In this document: one piece after another, positions 8,708 to 40,684 of the stretch
How positions within the stretch are numbered: the stretch's first letter is position 1
How the letters are laid out: each line of letters starts with the position of its first letter
Source of the DNA: Candidatus Ecksteinia adelgidicola
GTDB taxonomy: Bacteria > Pseudomonadota > Gammaproteobacteria > Enterobacterales > Enterobacteriaceae
Reading direction: 5' to 3'
Length of the DNA: 64,000 nt
Assembly: GCA_020541345.1 (NCBI GenBank)
Contig: CP045239.1
Coordinates: 558,001 to 622,000 of the forward strand
Program-made: the position numbers and the translations under genes
Notes under the pieces: generated by a model
Told to the model about the DNA's origin: nothing
What the model saw: the letters and a program-made list of their open reading frames with translations, nothing else
Databases searched by the model: none

Positions 8708-9637
8708 ATGATTGAAAAAAAAAAATACTGTGGATTGATCACAATACTTGGACGTTCTAATGTTGGTAAATCTACATTAATTAATCAATTGTTAGGAAAA
8801 AAAATTTCTATTACATCACATAAAACTCAAACTACGCGTTATCCTATAATAGGCATTAATACTAAAGATATTTATCAGTCTATTTATATTGACACTCCTG
8901 GTTTACAAATTAAAAAAAAACGTACTATTGATCATTTTATGAACCGTATGATAAATAGTTCCATCAAAGATGCTACATTAATAATATTTGTAGTAGAAAG
9001 CCTGAATTGGACTCTTAACGATCAAATAGTATGCAATAAATTAAATGTTCTAACATGTCCGATTCTTTTAGCAATTAATAAAATTGATAATCTTACTGAT
9101 AAATCTAAATTATTACCTTATATTTCATTTCTTAGCAAAAAAATAAATTTTTTAGAAGTAGTGCCTTTTTCTGCTAAAGAAAAAATTAACATTAATATTA
9201 TTAATAATATAGTACAGAAAAATTTACCAGAATCGAGTCATTATTTTTCTAAAAATAATATTATTAATTGCTCTCAAAATTTTATGGTATCAGAAATTAT
9301 TCGTGAAAGTTTAATACGTTTTTTAAATAAAGAATTACCATATTCTTTAATCGTTAATGTTGAAAAAATTATATTAAGCGATCATGGTGACTACAATATA
9401 TATGGTTTAATATTTGTAGAAAACGTAAACCAAAAAAAAATAGTTATTGGATATAAAGGAGAAAAAATAAAAATGATTGGTATAATATCTCGAAAAAATA
9501 TAGAGATTTTTCTTAATGCTAAAGTTTATTTAAATTTATGGGTAAAAGAAAAAAATGACAGCATAAATAATCAAAACATTGTCTATAACTCAAGTTATTT
9601 AAATAGTTTAAACAATTTAATTAATTTTATTTATTAA
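8708..9637 (+). CDS. era: GTPase Era
   Basis: Essential GTPase that binds the 3' end of 16S rRNA and helps mature the 30S subunit. The 309 residues (E. coli 301) show an N-terminal TRAFAC GTPase domain with G1 GRSNVGKS (15-22), the switch-I region with THKTQTTR-like text (37-44), G3 DTPG (62-65), G4 NKID (124-127) and G5 SAK (155-157). A C-terminal KH domain follows with its signature IGYKGEKIKMIG near 247-258 and LNLWVK near 276. The start ATG at 8708 leaves the usual short N-terminus (GLITILGRSN), and the Shine-Dalgarno is weak. Its usual operon mates rnc (upstream) and recO (downstream) are not intact here. The last 20 residues are A/T-driven and diverged. Confidence 0.96.
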   Translation: MIEKKKYCGLITILGRSNVGKSTLINQLLGKKISITSHKTQTTRYPIIGINTKDIYQSIYIDTPGLQIKKKRTIDHFMNRMINSSIKDATLIIFVVESLNWTLNDQIVCNKLNVLTCPILLAINKIDNLTDKSKLLPYISFLSKKINFLEVVPFSAKEKININIINNIVQKNLPESSHYFSKNNIINCSQNFMVSEIIRESLIRFLNKELPYSLIVNVEKIILSDHGDYNIYGLIFVENVNQKKIVIGYKGEKIKMIGIISRKNIEIFLNAKVYLNLWVKEKNDSINNQNIVYNSSYLNSLNNLINFIY

Positions 9638-10846
9638 AAAAAATTTTATTTTATTTCATTACATAAAATTTATTTTAATATTATATTTTTATCAACTAAA
9701 TTTTATTAATTTTTTTATTAATTTATAATCAATAATTTTATATTTTTATAGTATATAATATAGTATGATATATAGTTTTTATAAAAAAAACTATATAATG
9801 ATACAAAAAAAACATACGATCTGTTTTTATTTAAAAATTTTATTTGTTATTTAATTTTTAATAAAACATTTTCTTTATATTTAATTTTTTAATATTTTAT
9901 ATTACTATATATTTTATAGTATCATAGCAAAGTAAAGATAAAAAAACAATTATAATAATAAAAAGTTATGATTATATTATTAATAAGTATATTAATAAAG
10001 TATGTTAATAAAATTTTTATTTTTTTTATAAGAAACTTAATGCTTTTTCTTCTATAAATTCTCGTAATAAAATATAATATAATTTTTATAATAAAATATT
10101 ATATATTATTATTGGTATAAAATAAAATAATTTAAAATAATTACTAATATTAAATATATTTTTAAAATAATAAAAAATCTTACTTTATATAAATAAATGA
10201 TATAAATAAGTATTTGTCTTTACAATAAGTAAAGCAGAAAATAAAATTTTAAAACATGTAGCTTTTAAAAATAAAAAATTATGTAATAATTTTACATTGA
10301 TTAATGTTATAATTTAAAATATAATTTTATTATTAAACTTAATTAATAATTATATAATTAGCACTGAAGAATTGATTTTCATAAATTAATAATATTACCT
10401 TACAATTTTAATTTAAATTTTTACTATTAAATTTTTAATTTTATAATTTTAATATTTATAAAATTTATAAATATAAAAAACAGAATACTGTATTATTTTT
10501 ATTTTTAAAATTAAAAAGATAAACTAACAAAATATTTATATTAATACAAAATAATAAGTATATGATATTAAAAATAAATAATAATCATCAAGCATGCGTG
10601 CATATAATAAAATCTTATTGTAAATTAAAATTTATTCTCTCTAAAATCAATAAAATACAAAAAATTTACATTATTTAACATGATAAAACATATTGTTTAA
10701 CATTATAAATTGTTTTATTCTAGATAAAATTATGCAACAGTAAATCTATATGTATACTTAAAAGTATATGATATTAAAATTTATCAAATAGCATTATTTT
10801 TTTACATCTTGAAAAATATAATCGTTTTTTAAAACGTACTAATATT

Positions 10847-11525
10847 AGTTTTATAGAAATTACTTATTATACGCATATTAAACTTTGAGTATATACGCAA
10901 GATAATGGTAAAATATAATTATTTTATAATAAAACTTGTTTCGAACTAACATATAAGAATTAATTAAACATTCTTTTCAAGAAAGGTTTATAGAAAGTTA
11001 TTGAATAGTAAATTAAATATTTTTCATAAAAATTAAATTCATCTATTAATTTACAAGTAGCATTTTTACTTACGTACATAATAAATTTATTGATATAAAA
11101 TATATAAAAATCATAGTGAATTATGAATTATTTTATTGCATAATTTAAAATATAATATATATAATTTTATAAACAAATTTTTAAATTAACAATTTAAAGA
11201 CATTATATTTAAAATTAATGATATGTTTTAATTTTTATTTTGAAATCTTTTTCATGTTAAAATTTTAAATTTATTAAAAATACATTAATAATTTTCAATA
11301 TAAAAAATACTTTTTAAAAAAACAGATAATGTTTTATGCTTGATTTTCTATGCTAATAAACAACGAAATATTGTAAATTATAAGTATTTAAATCAATAAT
11401 TATAAAGAAATTCATAATATTTTTTTATTTTTTAATAAACTAGTTTACAATAAAATTTCAAAATATATTTTTTTTTCACAAAATATGTTACTACCACTTT
11501 TAAAGTGAAGAATATATTTCATTTG
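10847..11525 (+). pseudogene. recO: decayed recO (recombination mediator RecO)
   Basis: Translation contains several colinear islands of RecO with roughly correct spacing, broken by stops and indels. L*VYTQDNGKI*L (from 10883) matches E. coli LDVFTEESGRVRL (residues 22-34). FYLRT** then SEL*IILLH (11064-11147) matches LYINELL ... SELFFDYLH (90-115), with the two leucines lost by TTA-to-TAA changes. FEI at 11239 matches FEL (134-136). YVTTT-FKVKNIFH (from 11484) matches YLGGKPLKSRELFR (216-229); the interval between the last two islands is within 1 bp of that expected. The position downstream of era is ancestral. I infer that this lineage lost RecO recently enough to leave text. No ORF survives. 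Confidence 0.6.
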
Positions 11526-13484
11526 ACATCATATAACATAAAATTAGTAAAATGTTTCGCAAAGCAAATTAAATCTTAATTAAGTTTATATTTTTAAAAA
11601 ATTATTTAAAATAAACATCAAAATAAATAAAATAAAAAAATAATTGTTCAGTAATTACTTTAACAAAATGTTAATATTATATAAAATTATAAATAATTAT
11701 TATATTTTATAATAAAAATTTATAATATTCCTAATGTTAAATAAAAATATTATTTATTTTTTCATTTTAAAATTAATAAAATTGTTTTTTTTAATCTTAA
11801 GTTTTTTTATAAAAAATTATTTAAACGAAATATAAAAAAATTACTGTAAAATATACATTTTTTAAAGCAATAATTTATACAAAAAATGAATAAAAAATAT
11901 AGTATTTATAATAAATATATAGATAAATAAAAAATTAAAATTTATCGTAATTTAAGAAATAAATAAAAATATTGATGTAAATTTAATTTTTATAAATAAA
12001 AAATATTTAAAACATAATTATTTTTACAATAAAGTAAAATATATAATTAAAAAAATATTTAAAAGTATATAATTTATATTATAAATATATTATTTAAAAT
12101 AAACTTATTTTTAAAAATTTTTAAATGATACACTTTAAATAACAATAATGTTATAAATGTTATCAATTAAATGAATAAAATTATACTTAAAATAAAAATA
12201 ATACATAACATAATATTTTCATAAAATGTTAACAACATCACGTTTTGAATAATTATAACAACAATAAAAGATCATTTTTCATAAATTATTGTATTAAATT
12301 TATTAAAATATAAAACACAAAAAAATCATACTTTTATCTCAAAGATAAAAGACAGACTGAAATAAAACAATAATTTTTATTAAATTTTTATTAAAATTTT
12401 AATGATAGTATATGTAAATTAAAAAGTGACTTTTTAGATAGTTTTTTATTATCATGTTTAATTTTATATCATTTATCAAGATATAATATATATTATACAA
12501 GAATAATCTGAAATATAACTAACAATTAAATGTTTTTATAGAAAAATTCTTATGATAAAATTCATTATTGTTCTTACTATCTTTATATTTTTTAATAATT
12601 TTTTTACCATAAGTGTTTATACATAGAAGAATTAGTAGGCGTTTTCAACGTAGTTTAATTATTGTTTGAATTTAAACAAAATAAAAATATTATATTAGTT
12701 TTTACATTGATTTATAACATAAAACATTAAAAAACTAAAATCAGATTATACGTTGCATTTTATAAATTTTGTAAAAAGTATTTTTGATTCAATAAGTAAA
12801 AGTATTAATTTAATACGAAATAAAAAATGTTTTCTAAAAAAAATATCATAAAAAAAATGTTACTAAGAGTTAAAAATATCATAATAAAATATTAATAATT
12901 TAAAAAAAAATAAAATTATTGTAATTTAAAGTCATACTAAATTAATTAATTGTTTTAAAAAAACATATTAAAGTAAAAGTTTTATATTATTTTTTAATAT
13001 AAATAACGCTTATTATGAAATAAAATGTTAAAAATTCTGATATAATACTATGATAAAATACTATATAAAATATAATACTATATAATAAGTTTAACGTTTT
13101 ATGTTTTTTTAAAATTATTAATACAAGAAAAAATTTAAAGTTTTTAAAAATTCATTAGATTTTAATACAGTATCATTTTTTTTAAAAGCAGTTATAAACA
13201 ATCTATCAAAAAATTTTTTATCAAATATTTTATATTATAATAATCTTTATAATAAAATATGTAAAATAATTTATAAAAAATATCTTTAGAAATAACATAA
13301 AGTTAAAGATTAAGTTAAAATTACGTGTTTTTATGTTTTATTTTTTTTGTTTTTAGTATTTAAAATCAACAATAAAATTACTATAACATTTTAAAAAATA
13401 AAAAAAATAATGCGATAAAGTTAAAAATTGTTTCTTATCATTGTTACACATTATAAATTTAAAATACTGTAGAAATTATTTATT

Positions 13485-13516
13485 TAGTTATTACTATAAT
13501 TAGTTATTACTACAAT
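13485..13516. repeat. 16-bp tandem duplication
   Basis: TAGTTATTACTATAAT at 13485-13500 is repeated with one mismatch at 13501-13516, in noncoding DNA. Confidence 0.85.
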
Positions 13517-13828
13517 GCTAATTTTTTCTTTACAATATTTAAAATAAATAATAAATTTCTTATGAAATGATACTGTTAAAAATTCTTATTATACCTATCT
13601 TTTATGTAAAATGATATTAATCTAACAATTAATTAAAATTAAACAATGATGATTATTTAAGTTATTTTGTTCTAAAAATTAACTATATTACATGGTATTA
13701 ATGATTTATCAGCAGTAATAACAGATAAAATATTAAGTACGATTTTTTAATAATCTTAATATATATTACTGTCTTCTTTGTTAAAAAGTAAACATGTGCT
13801 ATTTCATCAATTTTATCTTTTTTATTTT

Positions 13829-13860
13829 ACTTTTATTAAAATATACTTTTATTAAAATAT
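13829..13860. repeat. 16-bp perfect tandem duplication
   Basis: ACTTTTATTAAAATAT at 13829-13844 is repeated exactly at 13845-13860, in noncoding DNA. Confidence 0.88.
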
Positions 13861-15615
13861 TATTTTTTTAATTAATTTCGGCGTATTATATAAAAAAGAA
13901 TATCAGAAAATTTTTTACATTAATTTTTAATAAAAGTATATTTAAAGAGCAATGTACATAAATGTACATATTATTGTTCTTTTTAGTTATTAAAAGATAA
14001 GTAGCAATATTCCTTCATGACTTATCGCTTAAATTGTAAAATAAAAATCATATTATTTAATAAACTAACTTCTAAGATTACGTTAAATTTTAATCCTTCA
14101 ATATTAAAAAACTTCTTTCGTAATATTTTTATATTTTGTAAAAATTAATATTTTATAGTTAATTTCTATGATTACATTTAAAAATTTTAAAATTAATTAC
14201 TTTTTATATTAGCTAAAAACTAAGTATATAAATTAATGAATTATTTTAAAAATAATTTACGTTATGTATTTTTATTTAATATTTATAAAATAATAATGAG
14301 TCATTTTATTTACAAAGATATATTTAGTTCTAATTTTCTTATTGCTCTATATTTTAATTAAATATTTAATAAAATAATTAACATGATATTTTAACATGTT
14401 ATTAATTTTAATAAAAATATTTTAAATATTTTACAAGAAGTTAAATTATTAATTAATAAATTATATTAGTATTTTAATTTTTATAAAATTCTTTGTATAA
14501 TTATATTATATAATATTTTATTAAATTTTTTTATATATTTTAAATCAAAATTATATTGTTTATTATTGTGTTTTAGCACTAAATGTATTGCATATTAATT
14601 TTATTTATAATAAAAATTTATATTATTTTACTCTTTCATAAAAATTTTTTATATTATCATTATTTTTATTAAAATTCATATAATGTCTGATATTAAAAAC
14701 AAGAGTATTTATATTATAAATATTTTATATTAAAAAATTTCATAATATTGTAAAATACTTTTAGTAATTAATATTTTAATGTTTATATAATAAAATATAA
14801 TAAATATTTATATTATTATTTATTTTACAAAAATAAATAATAAAGTTCTATATGATATTATTTAAAAAAATTAATAATCTATTAAATATCATAAATATTA
14901 TATAAAATATAAAACTAACTAAAATATTTATATAAAATGATATTATAAAAAATTTAATTATTAACAAATAGTTTTATATAAAAATATTTATTATGAATTA
15001 AAACATAGTTTTTAAGTATTCACTAACTTTTTATAAAATATATTTATTCTTATAAAAAAAATAAAAAAAAATAGATTTTAAAAAATTATTATACGATAAA
15101 TCTTTCAATAAAATTAGATATTAAATAAAACATTTCGTTTATAAAATATTATATATACATATACATTTATGTTATTTTTTATTAATTTACATTTCATAAA
15201 TTTTATTTAAAAATAAATTGTTTTAAATTATTAAATTAAAATTAAAAATAAAATTGTTGAGTATTTTCTTACTATAGACATAGTATAATTGTAATTATAA
15301 AAAAATGATAAATAGTAAATAGAATATTAAACATTATGTTTTTAAAAAAAAATAAAATATATAATTTTATAAAGATAAAAGCAATTAATTAAAATAAAGT
15401 AATAAAAATTATTTTTTTATAATCAATAAAAATTTTTAATATATAAATATATTTACATTTATATATAATTAATAATAAAAAATATAAATATAAATTTGTT
15501 GTAAAAGATTTATATAAAATTATTTTTTATATGATAATAAAAACAAATGAGCAATTATTTAATAATATATAAATGATTTGTTATTAGTTTATAGTTTAAA
15601 TACTGAGAAAATATT

Positions 15616-16536
15616 ATGATTCAATTTTTTCAATCTACTATAATTTCTACTCAATTATTAAATTATCACCAGAGAATTGAAGATACGTTATTACATTTTA
15701 TTGTATCTCCTAAATTTGTTAATGAAAATTTAGCATCAGCCATGCATTATAGTGTTTTTTTAGGTGGTAAACGTTTTCGTCCTATTTTAGTTTATATCAT
15801 TGGTCAGATGCTAGGTGTGACAGAAAATAATTTAGATATACCAGCTGCCGCAATTGAATGCATTCATCGTTATTCATTAATTCATGATGATTTACCATCT
15901 ATGGATAATGATAATCTTCGTCGTGGTCTTCCTAGTTGTCATATTAAATTTAATGAAGCAAACGCAATTCTTGCTGGTAATGCTTTACAAGCGCTTGCAT
16001 TTTCTATTTTAACTGACGAAGAAATGCCTGATGTCGTATTGAGTGATCGATTATTAATGATATCTGAATTAGCTCGTGCTACTGGAATTCATGGTATATG
16101 TAGTGGACAGTCAATGGATTTAGAAGCTAAAGGTAAAAAAATGAATTTAAAAAAAATAGAACAAATTTATTTTTATAAAACTGGTTCTTTAATTCGTGCA
16201 GCAATTCATCTAGGCGCTTTAGCTGCTGGTAATAGAGGTCGAACATTATTGCCATTACTTAATTCTTATGCTTTTTTAATTGGACTCGCATTTCAAATTC
16301 AGGATGACATTTTAGATATCGTTGGAAATAGTAAAATTGATAAAAAATCTCCAAGTAGAGAAAAAAAACAAAAAGAAAGTACTTATCCTTATTTATTTGG
16401 ATTAAATAATGCTAAAATTAGAGTACAAACTTTATATCAAGAAACATTAAATATATTAAATTGTTTAGAAAAGAAATCTTTTGATACTACTTTATTAAAA
16501 GCAATATCTAAATTTGTTGTTGAACGCGATACTTAG
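15616..16536 (+). CDS. ispA: (2E,6E)-farnesyl diphosphate synthase
   Basis: Condenses isopentenyl diphosphate with dimethylallyl and geranyl diphosphate to make FPP, the precursor of the undecaprenyl carrier used by MraY/MurG in this window. It has 306 aa (E. coli 299). The fold markers are GGKRFRP (50-56), the first aspartate-rich motif DDLPSMD (91-97) followed by DNLRRG, and the second motif QDDILD (229-234). Part of the basic region after it (KIDKKSPSREKKQKEST) fits the short-chain prenyl transferase pattern. ATG at 15616 gives a slightly long N-terminus; no strong Shine-Dalgarno is present (GAGAAAAT). dxs follows on the same strand, as in E. coli, but 1.2 kb away rather than immediately adjacent. 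Confidence 0.96.
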   Translation: MIQFFQSTIISTQLLNYHQRIEDTLLHFIVSPKFVNENLASAMHYSVFLGGKRFRPILVYIIGQMLGVTENNLDIPAAAIECIHRYSLIHDDLPSMDNDNLRRGLPSCHIKFNEANAILAGNALQALAFSILTDEEMPDVVLSDRLLMISELARATGIHGICSGQSMDLEAKGKKMNLKKIEQIYFYKTGSLIRAAIHLGALAAGNRGRTLLPLLNSYAFLIGLAFQIQDDILDIVGNSKIDKKSPSREKKQKESTYPYLFGLNNAKIRVQTLYQETLNILNCLEKKSFDTTLLKAISKFVVERDT

Positions 16537-17740
16537 CATTTAATTTTTTATGTGAAAACATTTAATATATTAAATCTATAACTATAACGTAATATTATGT
16601 TTTAATTAATAAAATTACAAATATAATATTAATAAATTGTATTAGTTTTTAATAAAAATAGAAGATATATTGACTATATAAATGTTATATAAACAAAAAT
16701 ATGTAATAATACAATATACTATTTTTTATAGAAATGTTTTAATAATGTGTGAAATACTTTATATTTTATAAATATTCATGTAAACTTTTAATACATATTG
16801 TTCATATATATTTTTTTATTTATAAAATAAAATTTTATAAAAAAGACAATCATTTAATTTTAAAAAAATAAAAAATTTTTTTAGCATAAAAAAATGAATA
16901 GAACATAATTGTATGTATTTTTTTGTAAAAATAAAGTTATAAACAATAAACAAAATATAATTTTTTAATATTTTTATAATAAACAAAAAAATTATTCACA
17001 TTTTATAATATTCTAAGAGAATTAAATATGTTATATTAATTCATTATGTATTATTAATAATAATTAATAATTTAATAAAATATTCATATGTTTTATTAAA
17101 ATAATAATATATGAAACGCTAATTTACTGAAATAGTATAAATAATGTTAAGAATATAAATATATTTAATTATATTTGTTAAAAAATATAAAATATCAAAA
17201 AATTAATTTTTATATCTATATATATTAATATAACAAAGATTTATCTTTGATGTCTTTAAATTAAATATATAATAATTTATTACTTATTAATCATGATAAT
17301 ATTTTATGTGAATCATTACATTAATTTTTATGAAATGTAAACGTAATATAATATATAAAAATTATATTATTAAAAATAAAAAATACTTCTCATTTGAAAT
17401 AATTATAAATATTAAATGTAGTTTTATTTCATATCATAAAACTAATTTTATTGTATAATTATATCATATTTATAATATTATGTTTATAATATTCAGTTAA
17501 ATAAAGTGCTTTTATTTTTATAGTTAAAAAATTTTTTATTATCCTTTTTAATTGTTTTTTAGAATAATATTTAATAATACTTTAAGAAATAAACGTTCAC
17601 TATAATAAACTATTAACTTTTTTTAAAAAAAATATAAAGATGTCTCGTGTATAAAACTTTGTTATATTCATTATTTGAAATACAATTAACGTTATTTTAA
17701 CTAAAAAATAAAATATATTCTGTTTAAAGATGAGTATTAA
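16537..17740. other. 1.2-kb noncoding spacer inserted between ispA and dxs
   Basis: ispA and dxs are nearly contiguous in E. coli and relatives, with no gene between them, so there is no ancestral gene whose decay explains this spacer. It shows no ORF, no RNA and no recognisable protein remnant, only A/T-rich text with a small hairpin-like AAAGATTTATCTTT at about 17235-17249. See findings: it looks like gained noncoding DNA. Confidence 0.7.
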
Positions 17741-19603
17741 ATGACTTTTAATAGTACTAAATTTCCAATGTTAAAATTAATAGAAACACCTACTGAACTT
17801 CGTTTATTGCCAAAAGAAAGTTTACAAAAACTATGTGATGAATTACGAAGATATTTATTATATAGCGTTAGTCACTCTAGTGGTCACTTTGCATCAGGAC
17901 TAGGTGTTGTTGAGTTAACAGTAGCATTACATTATATTTATTATACACCATTTGATCGATTAATATGGGATATTGGTCATCAAGCATATCCCCATAAAAT
18001 TTTAACAGGACGACGTTCTCGTATTAATAGTATTCGTCAAAAAAATGGACTACATTCTTTTCCTTGTCGTGATGAAAGCGAATATGATATCTTGTCAGTA
18101 GGTCATTCATCAACTTCAATTAGTGCTGGTCTTGGAATGGCAGTAGCATCAAATCGCGAAGGATTAAATCGCCATATAGTATGCATTATTGGTGATGGAG
18201 CTATTACTTCAGGTATGGCATTTGAAGCAATGAACCATGCAGGAGATCTTGATCTTGATATGCTAATTATATTAAATGATAATAAGATGTCGATTTCAAA
18301 AAATGTTGGAGCATTAAATAATCACTTAGCACGATTACTATCTAGTACATCATATAGTACATTACGTAAAAATAGTAAAAAAATATTGTCTAGATTACCA
18401 CGAATTCAAAGATTAATTAAGCGTACTGAAGAAAATTTAAAAAGCATATTACTTCCTAGTACATTATTTGAAGCATTAGGTTTTAATTATATTGGTCCAA
18501 TTGATGGTCATGATATACAGAATCTAATTATTACATTAAGTAATATGCGTAATTTAAAAGGTCCACAGTTACTGCATATCATTACAAAAAAAGGACAAGG
18601 TTATGCGCCAGCAGAACAAGATCCAATTACTTTTCATGCAGTTCCAAAATTTAATCCAGTGATCGGCTGCTTACCAAAAGTTACTGCTAACCATCCAAGT
18701 TATTCTAAAATATTTGGTGATTGGCTATGTGAAATGGCAGCTAAAGATAGCAAATTAATAGCAATTACTCCTGCAATGTGTGAAGGCTCTGGTATGTTAG
18801 AATTTTCACGTAAATATCCTAAACAATATTTCGACGTAGCAATTGCTGAACAACATGCAATAACATTTGCTGCTGGTTTAGCAATTAGTGGTTATAAACC
18901 AATAGTTGCGATTTATTCTACTTTTTTACAACGTGCATACGATCAGTTAATTCATGATGTGGTAATTCAAAAACTTCCAGTAATGTTTGCTATAGATCGA
19001 GGAGGTATTGTTGGCAATGATGGTCCAACTCATCAAGGTGCTTTTGATCTATCTTTTTTGCGTTGCATTCCAACTATAGTTATTATGACTCCTAGTGATG
19101 AAAATGAATGTCGAAAAATGTTATATACTGGTTACAATTATGATAGTAGTCCAAGTGTAGTACGATATCCTCGTGGTATAGGGACTGGTGTGACACTAGA
19201 GCTTCTTCAAACTTTACCAATTGGTAAAGGTATAATTCGACGAATGGGTAAAAATATTGCAATTCTTAATTTTGGAACTTTACTAAAAGAAGCTAAAAAA
19301 GTTTCAGAATCTCTTAACGCTACTTTAGTAGATATGCGATTTGTTAAACCATTAGATAAGCAATTAGTGATAAGTATTGCTACTAGTCATAAAGCCTTAA
19401 TTACACTGGAAGAAAATACTATTATAGGAGGTGCTGGTAGTGCTGTAAATGAATTATTATTAACTAATCGAATTTTACTTCCTGTTTTAAACATTGGTCT
19501 TCCAGATAGTTTTATTCCACAAGGAACTCAAGAAGAAATACATAATGATTTATTGCTAAATGCTGCTGGTATTCAACATCAAATTAAACAATGGTTAATA
19601 TAA
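17741..19603 (+). CDS. dxs: 1-deoxy-D-xylulose-5-phosphate synthase
   Basis: First enzyme of the MEP isoprenoid pathway: joins pyruvate and glyceraldehyde-3-phosphate using thiamine diphosphate and Mg2+. The 620 residues equal the E. coli length, with near-continuous similarity. Visible motifs are [13 protein letters not shown] (the conserved His near 49), [13 protein letters not shown] (about 80-92), the ThDP-binding GDGAITSGM (151-159) with the downstream NDNKMS, and the transketolase pyrimidine domain with the catalytic Glu370 in [12 protein letters not shown]. The C-terminal domain ends [11 protein letters not shown]. It is convergent with thiL, which supplies thiamine diphosphate, its cofactor. 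Upstream AAAGATGAGT gives a modest ribosome-binding site. No frameshifts were seen. Confidence 0.98.
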
Positions 19604-19976
19604 ATAAAATTATTAATGTTTTTAAGAAAATTATTTTAAAAGATAATCATTGGTATTTTCATAAATTTTTTTATAAATAAAATTTTATATTTTTTTTAAT
19701 ATAAAAATTTTATATTAACAGAAATAATTAATAAAACTTAAAATTTTATCTAATAAAAAACGCATTTTAATTAAAAGATTTTATTCTGTAGTTTTAGTTT
19801 TATATTAAAGATAAACGAATAATTTTAAAAGATTATCATATATCTAAAAAATCAAATATGATTATATAAAACTTATTTACTATTGCTTCTAAATTAATAA
19901 GTATATCACTTATTTTAGAATAAATTTTTTGTAAAAATATTTTTTACAAGATAAGTTTTTTATTTTTAAATAATTT
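19604..19976. other. convergent dxs/thiL intergenic region
   Basis: A 373-bp gap between the 3' ends of dxs and thiL. In E. coli yajO and pgpA occupy this place; neither is detectable. An A/T inverted repeat around 19678-19715 (AAAATTTTATATT ... AATATAAAAATTTT) could act as a bidirectional terminator, but in this composition that is weak evidence. Confidence 0.55.
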
Positions 19977-24324: not shown

Positions 24325-24352
24325 ATTATCAATATTTCTAAACAACACATAC
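24269..24352. repeat. imperfect duplication at the 5' end of rsmH
   Basis: ACGTTATTATAG at 24269-24280 recurs exactly at 24306-24317. The text after each copy is also related (TATTTTTAAAAAACACAT from 24281, ATTTCTAAACAACACAT from 24334), with about 16 extra bases in the second copy. The duplication therefore runs into the N-terminal codons of rsmH and may have formed or reshaped its unusual start. Confidence 0.5.
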
Positions 24353-25275
24353 ATACTAGTGTTTTATTAAATGAAGCAATTGATGCTTTAAATATTCGTA
24401 GTGATGGTATATATATTGATAGCACTTTTGGGTATGGTGGTCATTCTTGTTTAATTTTATCTCGATTAGGTAAAAATGGACGCTTATTAGCAATTGATCG
24501 TGATCCTCAAGCAATTCAATATGCACAATCTATTAATGATTCTCGTTTTAGTATTATACATGGATTGTTTTCTAATTTGTTACATTATACAAAAGAACGA
24601 GGATTAATAGGAAAAATTGATGGAATTCTATTTGATTTAGGTGTTTCTTCGTTTCAATTAGATCAAGCTGAACGTGGATTTTCTTTTATAAAAGATGGCC
24701 CATTAGATATGCGAATGAATCCATCCATGGGTATTCCTGCTTCTACATGGTTAATGAAAATGAAAGTAGATGAAATTTCTAAAATATTAAAATGTTTTGG
24801 AGAAGAACGTTTTTCAAGAAGAATTGCACATGCTATTATAAAACATAATTGTTTAAAACCAATAACTCGTACTAAAGAATTAGCTAATCTTATTATATCT
24901 GTTAATCCACATCGAGATCAAAAAAAACATCCAGCAACACGCAGTTTTCAAGCAATTCGTATTCATACTAATAACGAATTAGAAGAAATAAAGCGCGCAC
25001 TGTGTGCTACATTAAAAATATTAGCTCCTGAAGGACGTTTATCAATTATTACTTTTCAATCATTAGAAAATCGTCTTGTTAAGCATTTTATGCGTTATCA
25101 TAGTTGTAGTGCTCAAGTCCCAGTAAAAATTCCTTTAACTGAAAAACAGCTCCATCGTATGGATATTCATATTTTTAAAGTATTAGATAAAATATTTCCT
25201 TCAAAAATTGAAATTATTAAAAATATACGAGCTCGTAGCGCAATGTTACATATTGCAAAAAAAATATCATTATAA
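24325..25275 (+). CDS. rsmH: 16S rRNA (cytosine-1402-N4)-methyltransferase, non-AUG start
   Basis: Methylates C1402 N4 in the 30S P site; first gene here of the dcw cluster. Homology runs from HTSVLLNEA through the SAM motif [31 protein letters not shown], the GPLDMRM block and [13 protein letters not shown] to a C-terminal [10 protein letters not shown]. From 24325 it codes 316 aa (E. coli 313). The reading frame is open from 24244, but there is no ATG, GTG or TTG before the ATG at 24565, which would delete the SAM-binding region. The best candidate start is ATT at 24325, five bases after AGGA (24316-24319); ATC (24328) or ATT (24334) are alternatives. The protein text is intact, so I call a functional gene with AUU-type initiation, start uncertain. 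The next genes ftsL and ftsI are missing. Confidence 0.9.
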
Positions 25276-26883
25276 ATAATAATTAATAATTGGAAAATAT
25301 ATAATTATTATATTATTTTAAATTAAATTTATTAATAAAAAATTTTAATAATTTTTATTTTTTTTAATAATCATTAAATATAAAACTTTTTATTTTTTTA
25401 TAAAAAATATTATATTTTAAGATTGAAATATAATATATTTAATAATTAAAAAAAATTGTAAAAAAAATAGTTTTTTAAAATAAAAAATGGATAATTAACA
25501 AAAATTTTATTAATAAAATATATTTTTAATATCAATATTAAATATAATTTAAAATATAACATATGTTCTTTATTAATGTAAGTAATTAAATTATGTGTTT
25601 TATTTGTAACGAAGATTTAAAATTTATTTATAAAAATTTCTATTTATTTATTTTAATGATTTAATAAATATTACTTTAAATTATTAATATTAAATATTTA
25701 GTTTATATTATTTTTAATAATATAAAAATATTTTTTATATATTAATTAAAATATTAATTATATATTAAAATGTTTAACATCTATAAATGAATCAAAACAG
25801 ATAATATTTACAGAAAATTACAAACATATATTTTAATTTTAAAAATATATAACTATATGACAAAATGTACAAAATAATTTTTTTAATATGAAAATATCAT
25901 AAAAATTTTACATTTATAACATTAAAGTTCTTTATTAACATTTAATTTAAATATAGAACATGTAACGATTAATTAATTAAAACAATTATTTATATTTAAA
26001 AAGATAAAATGAATGAGAAATTAAATTAAAAAAATAAAACAAAATTTTAACACTTAATTATGTGTTATTTAAAATAAATAATAAATAAAATTATTTTCTA
26101 TTAAAATAAAAAAATTAAAATATTATTTAATTTTTATTTATAAAATAGTTTTAAAACATCTTTATTAATAAAATAAATAATTCATACTAATTAATACTAG
26201 TATAATAAAAATAAAATGATTAAATAAAATAATATTATTTTTATTTTTAAAATAAAAATGTTTTTAAAATAAAAAAAACAAAATAATTAAAAATTTTATT
26301 TTATTAAGATATCACTAAAAAATATGTTTTTAATTTTACTTTAATAATAAAATATTATAAATAACTATATACAACTCTGTTTTTAAAATTTTTTATAAAT
26401 AAAAAAGTAAATGTTATGAATATTATTCACATTATTAATTTATACTAATTTTTAATATTAAATAATAATTTTAAATTTATAGAATAATATATGTATATTA
26501 CACTTTAAAAATATAAAAAACAATTTTTTAAAAAAATGAATAATGTGTATTGCATTTGTTAACATAAGTTTATTAAAAATTTTTAATAATATTAACAATG
26601 ATTATTTTTTTAAAATTAAAATGTAATTTTGTTTTTGATATAAAATGTATTATATTGTAATTATTTATATTTACAATTTTTATAAGTCTATTTATTGAAT
26701 TTTCATAAACTAAATTATATATATATTGTTATCTATTAAAAATTATAAAAAATATTCTATTATATTACATAATATATTTTATTTTTTCTTGATAAATAAA
26801 AATAACATTATGCTATTTAAGTATAAAAATTAACGATATGCAATTTTATTAATAACAAAAATAATTATTTAAAGAGGATATAA
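25276..26883. other. gap where ftsL and ftsI should be
   Basis: In Enterobacterales ftsL and ftsI (PBP3, septal transpeptidase) lie between rsmH and murE, about 2.1 kb in E. coli. Here the 1.6 kb is A/T-rich with stops everywhere, and I could not find the PBP3 SxxK, SSN or KTGT blocks or any membrane-anchor frame. The right end carries the murE ribosome-binding site AGAGGATAT (from 26873). Confidence 0.75.
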
Positions 26884-28371
26884 ATGGAAAATCGTAATTT
26901 ATATGATTTACTTTTTCCATGGGTTCCAACAACCCCTAAATGTATATTGCGAGAAATGACTTTAAACAGTTCTGATGTTAAATGCGGAGATTTATTTATT
27001 GCAGTTCCTGGTCATCGAACAGATGGACGTTATTATATTCGTCAAGCTATTCATAAAGGTGTAGCTGCAATTATAGCTGACGCTAGTAACCATTATACAA
27101 ACGGTGTTATTTCAAAAATAGATAATATACCAATTATTTATTTAAGTCAACTCAACAAACGTTTGTCTGCACTTGCTGGTCGATTTTATCAATCTCCTAC
27201 TAATCGTATAAAACTTATTGGAGTAACTGGTACTAATGGCAAAACCAGTACTACACACTTAATAGCACAATGGAGTCAACTACTTGATAAAACTAGTGCA
27301 GTTATAGGAAGTGTCGGCAATGGTTTTTTAAATCATCTTAAACCTACTAAAAATACTACTAGCTCTGCAATCACATTGCAATATTTATTACATCAATTAG
27401 TTAATAAAGGAGCAACTTGCATAGCCATGGAAGTTTCTTCGCATGCCTTAATACAACATCGTGTAAACTCATTACAATTTTCTGCTGCAGTTTTTACTAA
27501 TTTAACTCATGATCATCTTGATTATCATCATAATATAAATAATTACGAATCAGCAAAATGGATGTTATTTTCTGATCATAATGTAAATCAAATGATTATT
27601 AATATTGACGATAAAACTGGATATCGATGGTTAAATAATTTAACAGATGTAGTAGCAGTTACTATAAGAAATAATCTTCCAAAAAATTATCATGGTCGAT
27701 GGGTAAAAACTACAAATATTTATTATTATAATAGAAAAACTATCATATATTTTAATTCTAATTGGGGTCATGGTAAAATTACAAGTAGATTAATTGGTTC
27801 TTTTAATGTTATTAATTTATTATTAGCGTTAGCAACATTATTAGTTTTAGGATATCCATTAAAAAAATTAATTAATACTGCTAAATATTTAAAATCAATT
27901 TGTGGTCGTATGGAAGTATTTAGTGTTCCTCAAAAACCAACAGTAATTGTAGATTATGCTCATACACCAGACGCATTAAAAAAAGCGTTAACAACACTTC
28001 GCTTGAATTATAAAGGACGATTATGGTGCGTATTTGGTTGTAGTGGAGATCGGGATAAAGAAAAACGGCCATTAATGGCAGCTATTGCTGAAAATTTAGC
28101 TGATCAAATAATTATTACCGATGATAATCCTCGCACTGAAGAATCAAAATTAATTGTTAGTGATATTCTTAGTGGATTGTTAAAATTTAATAAAGTATTA
28201 GTAATTCATAATCGTTTTAAAGCAATTACTCATGCTATTATGAATGCTCAAAAACAAGACGTAGTGTTAATTGCTGGAAAAGGTCATGAACACTACCAAT
28301 TGATTGGTAATCATAGTTTTTATCACTCCGATCGTTTGATTGTTGCTAGATTACTTGGTGTGTCACTATGA
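26884..28371 (+). CDS. murE: UDP-MurNAc-L-Ala-D-Glu:meso-DAP ligase MurE
   Basis: Cytoplasmic Mur ligase adding meso-diaminopimelate as the third stem-peptide residue. Its 495 aa equal the E. coli length. It has an N-terminal uridine-binding domain, a central ATPase domain with P-loop [12 protein letters not shown] (113-124), AMEVSSHAL, and [12 protein letters not shown] with the metal-binding residues. The C-terminal domain carries DNPR (414-417), the signature that selects DAP over lysine. The start ATG at 26884 sits behind AGAGGATATAA, a good Shine-Dalgarno. The stop overlaps the murF start (ATGA), keeping translational coupling. It is preceded by the ftsL/ftsI gap, so it must use a promoter within or before that gap. 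The DAP product matches the presence of LdtB. Confidence 0.98.
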
Positions 28372-29723
28372 TTTCTATTTCTCTTCGTAAATTAGCTAAA
28401 ATATTAAATGCTGAATTAATTGGTGCTGATAAAAAAATTATTGATGTAATAATAGATAGCAGAAAAATAACTCCTAATTGTTTATTTGTAGCTTTAAAAG
28501 GAAAGAATTTTGATTCGCATAATTTCATTACTATTTCCACTAATGCTACAGCATTATTAGTAAGTAAACGTTTGTTAGTAAATACGCCACAGTTATTAGT
28601 AAAAGATACAAAATTATCATTAGGAAAGTTAGCTTCTTGGGTCCGTCAACAAGTACCTACTCAAATAGTAGCTTTAACTGGCTCTTCTGGAAAAACGTCA
28701 GTAAAAGAAATGACTGCTGCTATTCTTAAAACATCTGGTAATGTTTTATACACTGCTAATAACTTTAATAATGATATTGGAGTGCCAATTACTTTACTGC
28801 GTTTAAAAAAACAACATAATTTTGCAGTGCTTGAATTAGGAGCTAATCATATTGGTGAGATTGCTTATAGTGTTTCACTAACAAAGCCTCAAAGTGTATT
28901 AATTAACAATCTTTCACCAGCTCATTTAGAAGGATTTGGTTCTTTAGAAGGTATTTCAAAAGCAAAAAGCGAAATTTTTAATGATTTACCTTCTAATGGA
29001 GTAGTGATTATTAATGCTGATAACAATGATTGGTTTCGATGGAAAAATAATCTAAGTACTCAAACTATTTGGAGATTTTCATTAAAAAATAAAATGAATG
29101 TTGATTTTTTTGCTAGTAAAATACAAATAAATAATAAAAACATATTTTTTCAACTTCATAGTCCATTTGGATGTACTCAAATAGTATTACCATTATTAGG
29201 AAAACATAATGTTAGTAATGCGTTAGCTGCTACTGCATTAGCAATGTCAGTTGGTGCAACTCTTGAAGGAGTATATCAAGGTTTAAAAAATCTACAAGCT
29301 ATGCCAGGACGCTTATTTCCTATTTTGCTGATGAAAAATAAATTGTTATTAGATGATAGTTATAATGCTAATTTTGGCTCGATGGTTGCAGCAATTCAAG
29401 TATTATCAAAGATGCCAGGGTATCAAGTAATGATAGTAGGTGATATAGATGAGCTAGGTGAAGCATCAAAAGAATATCATTATAAAATAGGTAATATCGC
29501 ACGTTTATCTGGAATTAATAAAGTAATTAGTATTGGAAATTTTAGTCGAATTTTAAGTACAGCTTCTGGAAAAGGTGAACATTATCTGGATCAATTAACT
29601 CTTATTACACGTGCAAGAGAGTTATTATCAGAGCATTCGATTATTACTATATTATTAAAAGGATCTCGAAATTCTAAAATAGATCGAATAGTACGTGCAT
29701 TACAGGATAAAATTCAGTGTTAA
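28368..29723 (+). CDS. murF: UDP-MurNAc-tripeptide:D-Ala-D-Ala ligase MurF
   Basis: Adds the D-Ala-D-Ala dipeptide (made by DdlB, also in this window) to complete the UDP-MurNAc pentapeptide. It has 451 aa (E. coli 452). Motifs are ATP-binding [14 protein letters not shown] near 102-115, [49 protein letters not shown], the domain-linking MPGRL and [14 protein letters not shown] at 28368 overlaps the murE stop by 4 bp, as in E. coli. The end overlaps mraY by 7 bp. All catalytic motifs are intact. Confidence 0.98.
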
Positions 29724-30799
29724 TATTACTAATTAAATATTTAATTAAATATTATTTATCATTTCATATATTTTTATCTTTAACTTTTAGAACTCTTTTT
29801 AGTCTGCTTACTTCATTCTTTCTCTCATTATTTATAGGATCTCGATTTATTAAATACTTACAAACAATATCTTTTAAACAAATAATAAGAAAAAATGGCC
29901 CTAAATCACATTTTGTAAAGTGTAATACTCCCACTATGGGTGGTATTATTATACTAACTTCTATTATAGTATCAGTAATATTATGGAGTTGTTTAACAAA
30001 TTTGTACATTTGGTATCCGTTATTCATATTAATAAGTTATGGTATTATTGGTTTTATTGATGACTACAATAAAATTTTAAAAAAAAACACTAAGGGATTA
30101 CGTCCATACTTAAAATATTTTTGGCAATCAGTAGCTGCATTCATAATAAGTTTTTCTATTTTTTTTATAGAAAAAGATACAGTAGCTACTGAATTAGTAG
30201 TACCATTTTTTAAATATGTTATATTTAAAATTGAATTATTCTATGTAATATTTTTTTATTTTGTAATTATTGGAACTAGCAATGCAGTAAATTTAACTGA
30301 TGGTTTAGATGGTTTAGCAATTATGCCAATAGTTTTTGTATCAATTAGTTTAGCATTGGTATCTGCAGCTAGTAGTAATGTAGATATTGCTCATTACTTA
30401 CATATTCCATATTTATATAATGCTAGCGAATTAACAATTATTTGTAGTTCTATTATTGGTGCTAGTCTTGGTTTTTTATGGTTTAACACTTATCCAGCAC
30501 AAATATTTATGGGTGATGTAGGTTCGTTAGCTTTAGGGGGGATATTAGGTGTAATATCAATATTATTATGTCAAGAATTTTTATTATTTATTATAGGTGG
30601 TATATTCGTAATCGAAACTTTATCAGTTATCTTACAAGTAGGATTCTTTAAAATATTAGGACAACGTATTTTTCGTATGGCTCCTATACATCATCATTAT
30701 GAATTAAAAGGATGGCCTGAATCAAGAGTAATTGTACGTACTTGGATTATTTCAATTATGTTATTTTTTATTGGTTTAGCAACATTAAAAGCGAGATAG
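29717..30799 (+). CDS. mraY: phospho-MurNAc-pentapeptide translocase MraY
   Basis: Integral membrane enzyme that transfers phospho-MurNAc-pentapeptide to undecaprenyl phosphate, forming lipid I. 360 aa, exactly the E. coli length, colinear from the first residue if the GTG at 29717 is used; this start lies inside the last codons of murF (7-bp overlap). There are about ten hydrophobic segments. Signatures are [16 protein letters not shown] near 55-70, the catalytic Asp pair FIDDYNK (Asp115/Asp116), [25 protein letters not shown], and the cytoplasmic histidine loop [14 protein letters not shown]. It depends on polyprenyl phosphate derived from IspA's product. murD follows two bases after the stop. 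Confidence 0.98.
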
Positions 30800-30801
30800 T
30801 A

Positions 30802-32139
30802 ATGAGAAATTATCATAACAAAAAGATTGTTATTATAGGATTAGGAATTACTGGATTATCTTGCATTCAATTTTTTATATCTCGCAAAGTAATACCCATT
30901 GTAATGGATACTCGTCTCTTACCTCCAGCATTAGAAGATTTACCTAATAGTGTAAAATCTTATTTAGGTGGTTTAAATCGGGATTGTTTAATGAATGCTG
31001 ATTTAATTGTTGTTAGTCCAGGTGTTTCTCTAACAATGCCAGAATTGCAATCTGCAAAAAAAACTGGTATTGAAATTATTGGAGATATTGAGTTATTTTG
31101 TCGTGAAGCAACAGCGCCTATTGTAGCCATAACTGGTTCTAATGGTAAAAGCACTGTTACTTCTTTAGTTGGCGAAATGGCAAAATCTGCTGGTTGGTTA
31201 GTAGGTATTGGCGGCAATCTTGGTTTTCCTGCGTTAAATTTATTAAATCAAGAGTATCAATTATATATATTAGAACTTTCTAGTTTTCAATTAGAAAGTA
31301 CATATACTCTTAGACCTGCAGCAGCAACTATTTTAAATATTGTTGAAGATCATATGGATCATTATCTATATGATTTTGAACAATATAAAAAAATTAAATT
31401 ACGTATATATGAATATGCAGATATTTGTATAGTAAATATTGATAACAAATTCACTATACCAACATATCATTCTAATTCATCTTGGATTAGTTTAGGTATA
31501 AATGTTGGAGATTATTGTTTAAATAATTATCATGGTGAATATTGGCTTCAAATTTATAATGAGCGTATATTAAAAACTAAAGATCTAAAACTAGTTGGTT
31601 TGCATAACTATGTTAATGTTTTGTCAGCACTGGCATTAGCTGATGCAATTCATATTCCACGTATTTTTTCTTTAAAAACATTAACTAACTTTACAGGTCT
31701 TCCTCATCGTCTTCAAAAAGTATTAGAGCATAATAATGTATGCTGGATTAATGATTCTAAATCTACTAATGTACACAGTACTCAAGCAGCTCTTAAAACT
31801 TTTAAAACAAGAAAAAAAATACATTTATTATTAGGGGGTAATGGAAAATCTGCAGATTTTTCTTCTTTAACAAAATATATAAAACATAGTAACATATATT
31901 TATACTGCTTTGGAAAAGATGCTATAAAATTATCACAGTTAAATCCAGATTCATCTTTTATATCAGAAACTTTAGAACAAGCAATGCGTATTATTATTTG
32001 TCGAGTAACACCTGGTGATATAGTATTATTGTCACCAGCGTGTTCTAGTCTTGATCAGTTTAAAAATTTTGAAGAACGTGGTAATAATTTTACTCAATTA
32101 GCAAAAAATCTTACTCAACAATACTGTATTAAATGTTAA
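30802..32139 (+). CDS. murD: UDP-MurNAc-L-alanine:D-glutamate ligase MurD
   Basis: Adds D-glutamate, the second stem-peptide residue. Taking the ATG at 30802, two bases after the mraY stop, gives 445 aa (E. coli 438) with the N-terminus [18 protein letters not shown] aligned to E. coli MADYQGKNVVIIGLG. A longer in-frame reading from 30742 would lie within mraY and is not supported. Motifs are the P-loop ITGSNGKST (110-118), [43 protein letters not shown] and [19 protein letters not shown]. The spacing to mraY is ancestral. Downstream the ancestral ftsW is replaced by a 1.1-kb gap, so murD ends the left half of the surviving mur operon. Confidence 0.97.
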
Positions 32140-33224
32140 TTAAAAAATAAAAAACAATAAACAAAAATTTGTTAAATTAAAAATAATTTTAATGTTAGTT
32201 ACATATATTCATATTATGATTATTCAAATTAATATTTGTAATAATTTACTGATTAATTTTACAAAAAACCTCATAATACAAACATTAAATTATTTTTATT
32301 AATTAAAAAATTATAATTGCATATTAAAATTATTTATAGAATTAAATAAATATTTATCAATGTTGTATCAAGTTATAATAAAATTTAATAGCACAAATAT
32401 ATGTTGTTATTTTTTTATTAAATTAATTACTTCTAAATAAGCTGATTAATATCATTTATTTTTATTTATTATATTTATTTTTTTTAAAAAATCAGAAATT
32501 GTTTTTTGTCAGATTTAATAAATTATTAAAATTTTTTTACAATAATTGTTATTATAATAATATTAATATTAATTTTTTTAATCTTATCGAGAATCATAAC
32601 TTAATCTTATTAATTATTTTATTAGCATAACATTTATTTTTATTAATAGATAAAATTTACTTATTGAACACCATATTTGTATTTGTTATTAATATAATAA
32701 AACTTATTATTATATTTTTGTTCAGTATAATTTTTATAAAAAACATTTTAAATAAATTTATGAAAAGTAATTTACTAATATCTAAAAACCTGTATTAATA
32801 TAATAAATAAATTATTGTAATAAAATTCATAAAGAACATTAAAAAATTTTATATAAACTTTTAAAGACATATTTAAATATACACTATTTTAATATTCATT
32901 AATGTAAAAAAGAATATGTAAATATAATACTTATTTTTAATGGCACTCTTTTATACTTTTTGTTTAACATTAACGATAGTATTTATCATTTAATAACAAT
33001 TTAGTTATTTTTTTCTATTTTATTTTTCCCGAAGTTTTTTAACACATTTATTTTTAACTATTAGATAATATCTACATTTAAAATGTATTATATTATTTAT
33101 TGAAGATAAGTCATTATTTTTTTATTTCACTTTTATTAATTATTTTATCATTGATTGTAGTATTGTTATATATTTACTAGATAATACATTTTTTAATACA
33201 ATACAGTATTAATATAGAGAAAAA
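32140..33224. other. gap where ftsW should be
   Basis: ftsW (about 1.25 kb in E. coli) normally lies between murD and murG. These 1.09 kb have no open frame. Near the right end (32940-33000) a short translation resembles the FtsW C-terminal loop (separate entry). The region must now supply a promoter for murG-murC-ddlB. AGAGAAAA just before 33225 is the murG ribosome-binding site. Confidence 0.7.
32900..33010 (+). pseudogene. possible ftsW remnant
   Basis: From 32940 the frame reads MALFYTFCLTLTIVF, which lines up without gaps with AGMLPTKGLTLPLIS near the FtsW C-terminus (T and LTL identical, several conservative changes). It sits about 230 bp before murG, close to the expected 130 bp. The preceding text is compatible with the ALVNVGAA helix with L-to-stop changes. 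Only a short island survives, so chance is not excluded. Confidence 0.3.
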
Positions 33225-34289
33225 ATGAATAAAAATTTTAAGCGAATAATAATAATGGCAGGGGGAACTGCTGGTCATGTATTTCCAGGACTTGTAATTG
33301 CAGATCAATTAATCGAACTAGGATGGAAAGTTCGTTGGCTTGGTACTGCAGATCATATAGAATCTTATTTAGTGCCAAAGCATGATATTGAAATTGATTT
33401 TATTTCTATTTCTAGTTTACGAGGTAAAAAATTAAAAAATCAAATATGCGTACTGTTGTATGCTTGTAAGGCAGTAATACAAGCAAAAAAAATTATACAA
33501 CAATTTAAACCAAATATTGTATTAGGTATGGGAGGTTACGTATCTGGACCTGCTGCACTAGGAGCTTGGCTTTGCGGTATCCCAATAGTTTTGCATGAAC
33601 AAAATAGTGTTGCTGGATTAACTAATCGTTGGTTATCACGATTTTCTAATATTATATTGCAAGCTTATCCTGGCACGTTTAAAAACGCTAAAGTAGTAGG
33701 AAATCCATTGCGTCGTAATATCATCAAGATATCCGAACCTAATGAACGTTTAAGACAGAGAAAAGGATGTATTCGTGTATTAGTTATGGGCGGGAGTCAA
33801 GGTGCGCAAATCTTTAATCAAATTTTACCTGAAGTTTTGACACGATTAAAAGATAAAATTACAGTATGGCATCAAGTTGGAAAAGGAGCATTAAGTTCTG
33901 TATTTAAAAATTATAAAAAGTTAGGAAAAATGCCATATAAGATAACTCAATTTATTGATAATATAGCTATAGCTTATGCTTGGGCTGATGTAGTAATATG
34001 TCGATCTGGCGCATTAACAGTAAGCGAGATTTCTGCAGTAGGTCTTCCAGCGATTTTTGTGCCATTTAAGCATAAAGATAATCAACAATACTGGAATGCT
34101 GTTCCGTTAGAAAACATTGGGGCAGCTAAAATTATTCAACAAGAAGAATTTAATGCTAAGATAGTCTCTGATATATTATTAAATTGGAATCGTTCAATAT
34201 TATTTGATATGGCAAATAAAGCTCGTTCAATAGTAATTAATGATGCTACTGAGCGTGTGGTAACAGCATTAATACAAACTTCCAAATAA
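33225..34289 (+). CDS. murG: UDP-GlcNAc:lipid I N-acetylglucosaminyltransferase MurG
   Basis: Peripheral inner-membrane GT-B glycosyltransferase that converts lipid I to lipid II. It has 354 aa (E. coli 355). The N-terminal domain carries the glycine-rich [13 protein letters not shown] (11-23), followed by [15 protein letters not shown] and the catalytic-region [15 protein letters not shown]. The C-terminal UDP-GlcNAc domain has [35 protein letters not shown] and [18 protein letters not shown] at 33225 follows AGAGAAAA. Downstream is an 83-bp spacer then murC, as in the ancestral order. All three glycine-rich loops are intact. Confidence 0.98.
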
Positions 34290-34372
34290 AATATGATAAT
34301 AATATAATACATTATTTATGAATTTTAAAGTTCATTTAAAATTTATAATTTCAATCTAATTCAGAGAAATTC

Positions 34373-35821
34373 ATGAAAAAGAAACCATTAGAAAAACTAT
34401 GGAATCTAGCTCCTAGAATAAACCGTAAACAACATATTCATCTTGTTGGTATTGGTGGTGCTGGGATGAGAGGCATAGCTGAAATATTAGCGAATCAAGG
34501 CTATCAAGTTAGTGGATCTGATTTAATTTATAACTTAGCAATAAAAAAATTAAATAAATTAGGAATCACTGTTTACTTAAACCATTGCGAAGAAAATGTA
34601 CTAAATGCTAGTGTAGTAGTTGCATCTAGCGCTATTTCTATTGATAATTTAGAAATAGTTTCTGCTCACAAACAACGAATCCCAGTTATTTGTCGTACTG
34701 AAATGTTAGCAGAAATAATGCGTTTTAGTTATGGTATTGCTATCGCTGGTACACATGGTAAAACTACTACTACTGCAATGTTATTAAGTATTTATACTAC
34801 GGCTAATTTAGATCCAACATTTATTAGTGGTGGATTTGTAAAATTATTTAAAACTCATGCACGGTTAGGTTCTAGTCGTTATTTTATTGTAGAAGCTGAT
34901 GAAAGTGATGCATCATTGTTATATTTACACCCAATGGTAACAATTATTACTAATATTGAAGCTGAACATATGGATACTTATAAAGGTGATTTTAATAAAT
35001 TAAAGAAGATTTTTATAAATTTTTTACATAATTTACCGTTTTATGGATATGCAGTTATGTGCATTGATGATCCAGTAATACAAAAGTTATTACTACATAT
35101 AAATCGTAAAATAATTACTTATGGATTCAACAAAAAAGCTGATGTATCAATAAAAAGTTATCATCAATTAAACATGAAAGGATATTTTACGTTAAAAAGA
35201 AAAAACAAACCTTTTATAACAGTGTCACTTAATGCCCCAGGCCATCATAATGCACTAAATGCAGCAGCAGCAATAGCGGTAGCAACAGAAGAAGGTATTG
35301 ATGATAAAGATATTTTATATGCATTAAAAACATTTAAAGGTGTAAGTCGCCGTTTTGAATTTTTTGGCGAATTTTCATTATTAAAAGTTAACGGGAAAAA
35401 AGGTACTGTAACATTATTTGATGATTATGGACATCATCCTACTGAAATTAATGCTACAATACAAACAGCTCGTATTAGCTGGCCAAAAAAACGTTTAGTG
35501 ATGATTTTTCAACCTCATCGTTATACACGAACTTACAATTTATATAATGATTTTGTCAATGTATTATCACAAGTAGATGTGCTTTTAATGCTTGACGTTT
35601 ATAGTGTAGGTGAAACACCTATTAATGGTGCTAATAGTTATTCACTATGTAATACCATTCGAAATCTTGGAAGATTAAATCCTATTTTAGTTTTAAATAT
35701 TAACAATTTACCTAAAATTTTAATAAATTTATTACAAGATGAAGATCTTATATTAATACAAGGAGCTGGAAATATAGGTAATATTGCTAAAAATTTAATT
35801 AAATTTTATTTTACGTTATAA
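34373..35821 (+). CDS. murC: UDP-N-acetylmuramate:L-alanine ligase MurC
   Basis: First Mur ligase, attaching L-alanine to UDP-MurNAc. It has 482 aa (E. coli 491; the C-terminal acidic tail is shorter). It has an N-terminal Rossmann domain with [15 protein letters not shown] (about 23-37), P-loop [10 protein letters not shown] (125-134), [21 protein letters not shown] with the metal ligands, [33 protein letters not shown] and FQPHRYTRT. The ATG at 34373 is colinear with the E. coli start and preceded by CAGAGAAA. ddlB begins 19 bp after the stop, and the pair is probably co-transcribed with murG. Confidence 0.98.
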
Positions 35822-35840
35822 GAAAACATTAAGGAATATA

Positions 35841-40351: not shown

Positions 40352-40684
40352 TTATTTCTTTTCGATCAAATTTGGATTAATTCTAATATTAATTGATAAT
40401 AATGATGGTAAAATTTTTTTTTTAAAATTTGAAAGCAATATAAATTCTTTATATCTTAAATTTATCATCCAACTAGCATTTGCTACTTCTAATATTAAAA
40501 TATTATCTCGAACATTTGCAATACGACACCAAGGATGCATCTTTGTAGGTAAAACTTTTTTTAACACAAGATTTAATTTAAGCAACATCTGTATGTGTTT
40601 TTTTATAGTAAATAATGATGATTGATTTAATTCAAAAGCTTCTTCAAATAATACATTTAATAATTTTGGATAACTTTTTCTCAT
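40352..40684 (-). CDS. dciA: DciA/DUF721-family protein (replicative helicase operator)
   Basis: A 110-residue protein read toward lpxC. The central block HPWCRIANVRDNILILEVANASWMINLRY has the DUF721 pattern (a hydrophobic strand pair followed by the conserved W and a basic stretch). DciA proteins load or stimulate the replicative helicase DnaB in bacteria lacking DnaC. I recall a DUF721 gene at this divergent position between lpxC and secM/secA in Yersinia/Serratia-like genomes but not E. coli; that is memory, not a search. The start ATG (40682-40684) has a clear GGAG eight bases upstream on the minus strand, supporting translation. It is a minimal version (family members are often 140-170 aa) and convergent with lpxC. 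The function here is inferred. Confidence 0.75.
   Translation of the reverse strand: MRKSYPKLLNVLFEEAFELNQSSLFTIKKHIQMLLKLNLVLKKVLPTKMHPWCRIANVRDNILILEVANASWMINLRYKEFILLSNFKKKILPSLLSINIRINPNLIEKK

Follow-up and report, generated by a model that had tools for sequence, protein, structure and literature searches.

The window analysed here is a stretch of 64,000 nucleotides from Candidatus Ecksteinia adelgidicola, and it covers positions 558001-622000 of a 980,458-bp genome present as a single contig. Within it, ispA and dxs are separated by a long noncoding spacer (Table 1). The earlier note had put this spacer at about 1.2 kb, and the exact coordinates bear it out: 1204 bp, as compared to 24 bp in E. 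coli K-12. The alignment of IspA reaches the end of the E. coli protein, and a short leader is preserved directly in front of dxs (GATGAGTATTAA-ATG in the window, GATATGAGTATCGA-ATG in Serratia). Since IspA and Dxs are both full length and the dxs leader was kept, the extra DNA has an intact end on either side and did not arise by erosion of a gene.

Table 1. Features of the window referred to in the text. Positions are counted from the first nucleotide of the window.
Feature	Position	Strand	Remark
era (GTPase gene)	8708-9637	+	intact
era-ispA interval	9638-15615		5978 bp, 11.6% GC, gene-free; rearrangement junction
ispA (farnesyl diphosphate synthase)	15616-16536	+	intact, left flank; 51% identity to full-length E. 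coli IspA
ispA-dxs spacer	16537-17740		noncoding, 1204 bp, 11.3% GC; proposed decayed kb-sized insertion
retained dxs 5' leader, AAGATGAGTATTAA	17727-17740	+	matches Serratia leader GATATGAGTATCGA
dxs (1-deoxyxylulose-5-phosphate synthase)	17741-19603	+	intact, right flank; 73% identity, full length, to E. coli Dxs
dxs-thiL gap	19604-19976		E. coli yajO and pgpA (about 1.5 kb of genes) down to 373 bp, beside the grown spacer
ftsL and ftsI lost	25276-26883		control gap, 1608 bp left of about 2130; no detectable remnant
ftsW lost	32140-33224		control gap, about 1.1 kb left of 1240; no detectable remnant
ftsQ, ftsA and ftsZ lost	36759-39231		control gap, about 2.5 kb left of 3403; no detectable remnant
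asnS-ompF spacer	56509-58008		1.5 kb, against about 300 bp in free-living Serratia-type genomes; the window's other grown spacer

The spacer itself was searched for remnants and signals. Its six read-through frames gave no match to Pfam, and no Rfam family was found. The longest open reading frame in it has 59 aa, no excess over shuffled sequences (mean 53.5). Promoter-like sites were not above the level of shuffles, and weak AT-rich tandem arrays lie inside 17020-17493, both scans being uninformative at such an AT content. A terminator and long direct repeats were not found in the spacer. Its inverted repeats are AT-rich and internal; none is present at both ends, and no target-site duplication is recognisable.

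We then compared the locus among Enterobacterales and near relatives. ispA is adjacent to dxs on one strand in 109 of the 110 loci, and neither a gene nor a gene-sized gap was seen between the adjacent genes in any relative examined. In the other 108 adjacent loci, the spacer measures 13-339 bp. It is 34 bp long in Serratia plymuthica and 34-85 bp in free-living Serratia-type genomes, and it reaches 225 bp in S. symbiotica SCc, 196 bp in Gillettellia and 175 bp in the relative G029. The adjacency is ancestral, and the spacer is not the fossil of a gene that decayed in place, which agrees with the earlier statement that decay of an ancestral resident gene cannot explain it. Since no relative has a gene at this site, the DNA that decayed there must be an addition. 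In a 650,317-bp genome of the same genus (G001), whose 16S is nearest to that of S. symbiotica SCc among those compared (93.8%), the two genes have come apart: ispA is found at a distance of 23 kb, flanked by hslV and a macB-like gene, and a divergent thiI directly precedes dxs (loci L143:4157-5077 and L144:4969-6861).

A second gain of 1.2 kb had been proposed between era and a fossil of recO. The two genes do nearly touch in E. coli (11 bp), and their spacing is short in 24 relatives (about 11-35 bp in E. coli and free-living relatives). The proposed gain itself could not be upheld, as recO is undetectable. None of recO, pdxJ, acpS, xseB and thiI was detected in the era-ispA interval; no trace of recO was obtained by tblastn or, over the whole genome, with the RecO_N profile, and a 24-sequence RecO profile read through stops scored -4.4 bits at best, equal to reversed DNA. 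In E. coli, over 2 Mb separate the era and ispA loci, indicating that the interval is a rearrangement junction. An era-recO distance therefore does not exist in this genome.

How much weight an absent remnant can carry was judged from genes known to be lost from the window. At the positions of the lost ftsL, ftsI, ftsW, ftsQ, ftsA, ftsZ, yajO and pgpA, the profile search gave no signal, while intact era, the positive control, scored 324 bits. Known gene graves have a GC content of 8.5-12.4%, and the ispA-dxs spacer is alike in this respect. An inserted gene or insertion sequence (IS) of similar age would be equally invisible in it. That no gene remnant was seen in the spacers, as noted earlier, is therefore no evidence against an insert that has decayed, be it a gene or an IS. 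As was also pointed out before, the fts gaps are shorter than the genes that they replaced (Table 1). Gaps with lost genes in this genome kept 0.66 of their former length (ten gaps). For six such gaps in S. symbiotica SCc, the ratio to E. coli is 1.34, a net lengthening that may reflect more insertions or a poorer reference.

Whether spacer growth is general was assessed at ancestrally adjacent gene pairs. The comparison set 17 E. coli regions with 293 genes against 464 kb of the genome (about 47%, window included). The retained genes include 87 pairs that are neighbours in E. coli, mostly operon pairs under selection and hence not neutral. In 75 of these the spacing differs by at most 50 bp, and the median change over all 87 is 0 bp. 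Growth beyond 300 bp was seen at only four, namely ispA-dxs, tsf-pyrH, asnS-ompF and dnaA-rpmH; in free-living Serratia-type genomes, the last three spacers measure 150-230 bp, about 300 bp and 680-740 bp, respectively. In sampled stretches of related genomes, grown pairs numbered 4 of 57 in Gillettellia, 1 of 67 in S. symbiotica SCc (ribD-ribE, which shows a similar step) and 0 of 42 in G029. When the four genomes were taken together (253 pairs), the increments were bimodal: none fell between 300 and 600 bp, and nine exceeded 600 bp (895, 901, 1092, 1180, 1180, 1212, 1371, 1581 and 1740 bp). These increments are relative to E. coli, an imperfect proxy of the Serratia ancestor, and the cross-check against Serratia-type genomes covers the four pairs of the window's genome. 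Increments of 200-250 bp common to SCc and G029 (bamA-skp, lpxD-fabZ) are probably a difference between Serratia and E. coli and not growth. Spacer growth is rare and stepwise, not general; a unimodal, general excess of spacer length, as gradual neutral growth would give, was not seen. The idea of a net growth of spacers therefore does not hold, all the more since lost-gene gaps shrank in the window's genome.

Grown pairs are mostly not common to different lineages, as expected of independent insertions. The spacer of tsf-pyrH is an exception (loci L218 and L213): it measures about 1.05 kb in the window's genome and 1.36 kb in Gillettellia, and the expansion is absent in SCc, G029 and free-living Serratia-type genomes. 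A shared or repeated insertion is needed at this pair. A motif of an IS3 integrase was suspected by eye in the Gillettellia spacer and then rejected, as it had no Pfam match and no match to PF00665 at E values up to 10. Gillettellia further carries a noncoding stretch of 1232 bp (L245:9962-11193) that divides nuoG from nuoF within the nuo operon; the two genes are 52 bp apart in E. coli and 86 bp apart in the window's genome.

Considering these results, we think it probable, with some reservation, that a single kb-sized insertion, most likely an IS, decayed between ispA and dxs to AT-rich filler. The DNA added there amounts to about 1.0-1.17 kb, within the size range of ISs (0.7-1.5 kb). Seven complete ISs of E. 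coli K-12 (IS5, IS30, IS3, IS2, IS186, IS4 and IS150) measure 1195-1443 bp, a range close to the centre of the increments seen here. Among S. symbiotica strains, those with larger genomes have more than 100 IS copies, while SCc and STs have none (PMC5013485), and the ancestor of SCc was inferred to have had mobile elements that are now unidentifiable (PMC3899985). The sizes of the increments, the IS-rich strains and this inferred ancestral load together make a decayed IS the most likely source. We infer that a segment of about 1 kb would have entered between the ispA stop codon and the dxs leader at a time when mobile elements still abounded in the ancestor, and that it would have been tolerated as both genes stayed intact; transcription of dxs presumably starts inside the spacer. 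Once transposition had ceased, AT-biased point mutation without full deletion may have turned the segment into filler of 11% GC like the other gaps of the window.

Homology to transposases was looked for and not found. The transposase profiles PF00665 and PF00872 had no match in five genomes of the clade, the proteins of IS1, IS2, IS3, IS4, IS5, IS30, IS150 and IS186 gave nothing above chance against the sampled stretches, and a Pfam search of the less decayed nuoG-nuoF insert of Gillettellia was negative. We therefore do not classify the ispA-dxs spacer as a proven IS, although the same test is blind to the lost fts genes at this stage of decay. Two further observations speak against an IS: the increments of 895-901 bp and of 1.5-1.7 kb lie outside the sizes of the seven K-12 elements, and the growth of tsf-pyrH in two lineages calls for a shared or repeated insertion.

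Those sizes that do not fit would be accounted for if the inserted unit was a chromosomal fragment, a group II intron, a phage piece or a horizontally acquired gene that reached the site in the course of the many rearrangements and decayed afterwards. The clade is heavily rearranged (PMC5013485), the era-ispA interval itself joins distant loci, and ispA and dxs have been separated in G001. However, the order and orientation of ispA and dxs are ancestral, no inversion endpoint is needed inside the spacer, and a clean insertion would still be required; we regard such an origin as possible but unlikely.

Gradual growth by many small insertions or by slippage in AT-rich DNA, which the earlier note had proposed, appears improbable. 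The three relatives with spacers of 175-225 bp, modestly above those of free-living Serratia, and the weak tandem arrays would be compatible with it. The zero median over 87 pairs, the empty class between 300 and 600 bp in four genomes, the shrinkage of lost-gene gaps and the lack of long direct repeats in the spacer all argue against it, although selection on operon pairs weakens the argument drawn from conserved pairs. We also considered that an as yet unidentified class of element, or a process of replication or repair, adds units of about 1 kb at certain intergenic sites in long-term symbionts after the loss of ISs. Noncoding DNA would then still be gained in genomes that otherwise evolve by deletion. 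The growth of tsf-pyrH in two lineages can be cited for it; even so, we hold this to be very improbable.

There is hardly any reason to suspect a wrong join that put unrelated sequence between ispA and dxs. The Ecksteinia genome described in PMC8857208, if it is the same, was assembled from 150-base Illumina reads, which leaves some room for such an error. On the other hand, the spacer is single-copy, its best other match in the genome (68% over 450 bp) is at a level that the reversed sequence reaches too, and similar grown spacers occur in Gillettellia, a sample sequenced by PacBio (PMC8857208). Apparent similarity of the spacer to other spacers of the genome (E values down to 1e-21) was discarded as an artefact of AT composition, as the reversed sequence scores as high. 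Finally, the retention of 1.2 kb between two isoprenoid genes still under selection might suggest a functional element that kept the spacer long (a small RNA, a regulatory leader or a gene for a short peptide), but with no Rfam family, promoter-like sites and open reading frames as in shuffled sequences, no terminator and a GC content as low as in gene graves, this is scarcely credible.

Coding sequence makes up about 25.6 of the 64 kb (40%), so the earlier estimate of a coding density near 40% holds for the window. It had been suggested that the growth of spacers helps to explain this low value. The two grown spacers of the window add about 2.4 kb, only about 6% of its noncoding DNA, and therefore do not explain it. 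Most of the window's noncoding DNA must come from elsewhere, mainly from genes decayed in place, which is also the view argued for in PMC8857208 and PMC3213167.

The spacer resembles the long intergenic regions of S. symbiotica SCc, which are AT-rich, IS-free and devoid of homology and reflect the decay of once useful DNA; with 38.7%, the coding density of SCc is also similar (PMC3213167, PMC3899985). Unlike the SCc regions, which were read as old pseudogenes in place, the ispA-dxs spacer occupies a site without a gene in any relative. The steps assumed here, namely insertion, loss of transposition and erosion to filler, follow the model by which ISs decay into junk DNA in recent symbionts (PMC3899985); in contrast to that model, neither a transposase nor terminal repeats are recognisable here, and the proposed identity rests on the size step and the history of the clade. 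Ca. Ecksteinia adelgidicola was placed beside STs, and large spacers, low coding density without ISs and the loss of division genes were described for it and for Gillettellia (PMC8857208). In that study the large spacers were taken as gene fossils, whereas about 5% of the ancestrally adjacent pairs in the window's genome need an insertion.

In symbiont genomes that are half decayed, large spacers are usually scored as gene fossils, and pairs that were always adjacent provide a clean control. In this clade, a kb-sized unit was added to nine of 253 such pairs, with essentially no change in the others. Comparing adjacent pairs can thus tell insertion from gene decay without surviving homology, and rare, stepwise growth corrects the idea that net spacer growth drives low coding density. 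In the shrinking genome of this insect symbiont, the ispA-dxs spacer most likely goes back to one old insertion that decayed in place, which makes it a clear case, though a fairly ordinary one.

The region with the control gaps (25276-39231) is a division and cell wall cluster that lacks all its fts genes (L, I, W, Q, A and Z); murE, murF, murD, murG, murC, mraY and ddlB are intact. Next to it, the reading frame of rsmH (24337-25275) is intact, but its conserved N-terminus has no ATG, GTG or TTG. An ATT after a TAGGA motif is best placed to serve as the start, indicating that the gene either uses a rare start codon or has begun to decay. Between lpxC and secA, an open reading frame of 110 aa on the minus strand (40352-40684) appears by eye to be DUF721/DciA-like; the corresponding interval of E. 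coli K-12 contains secM only.
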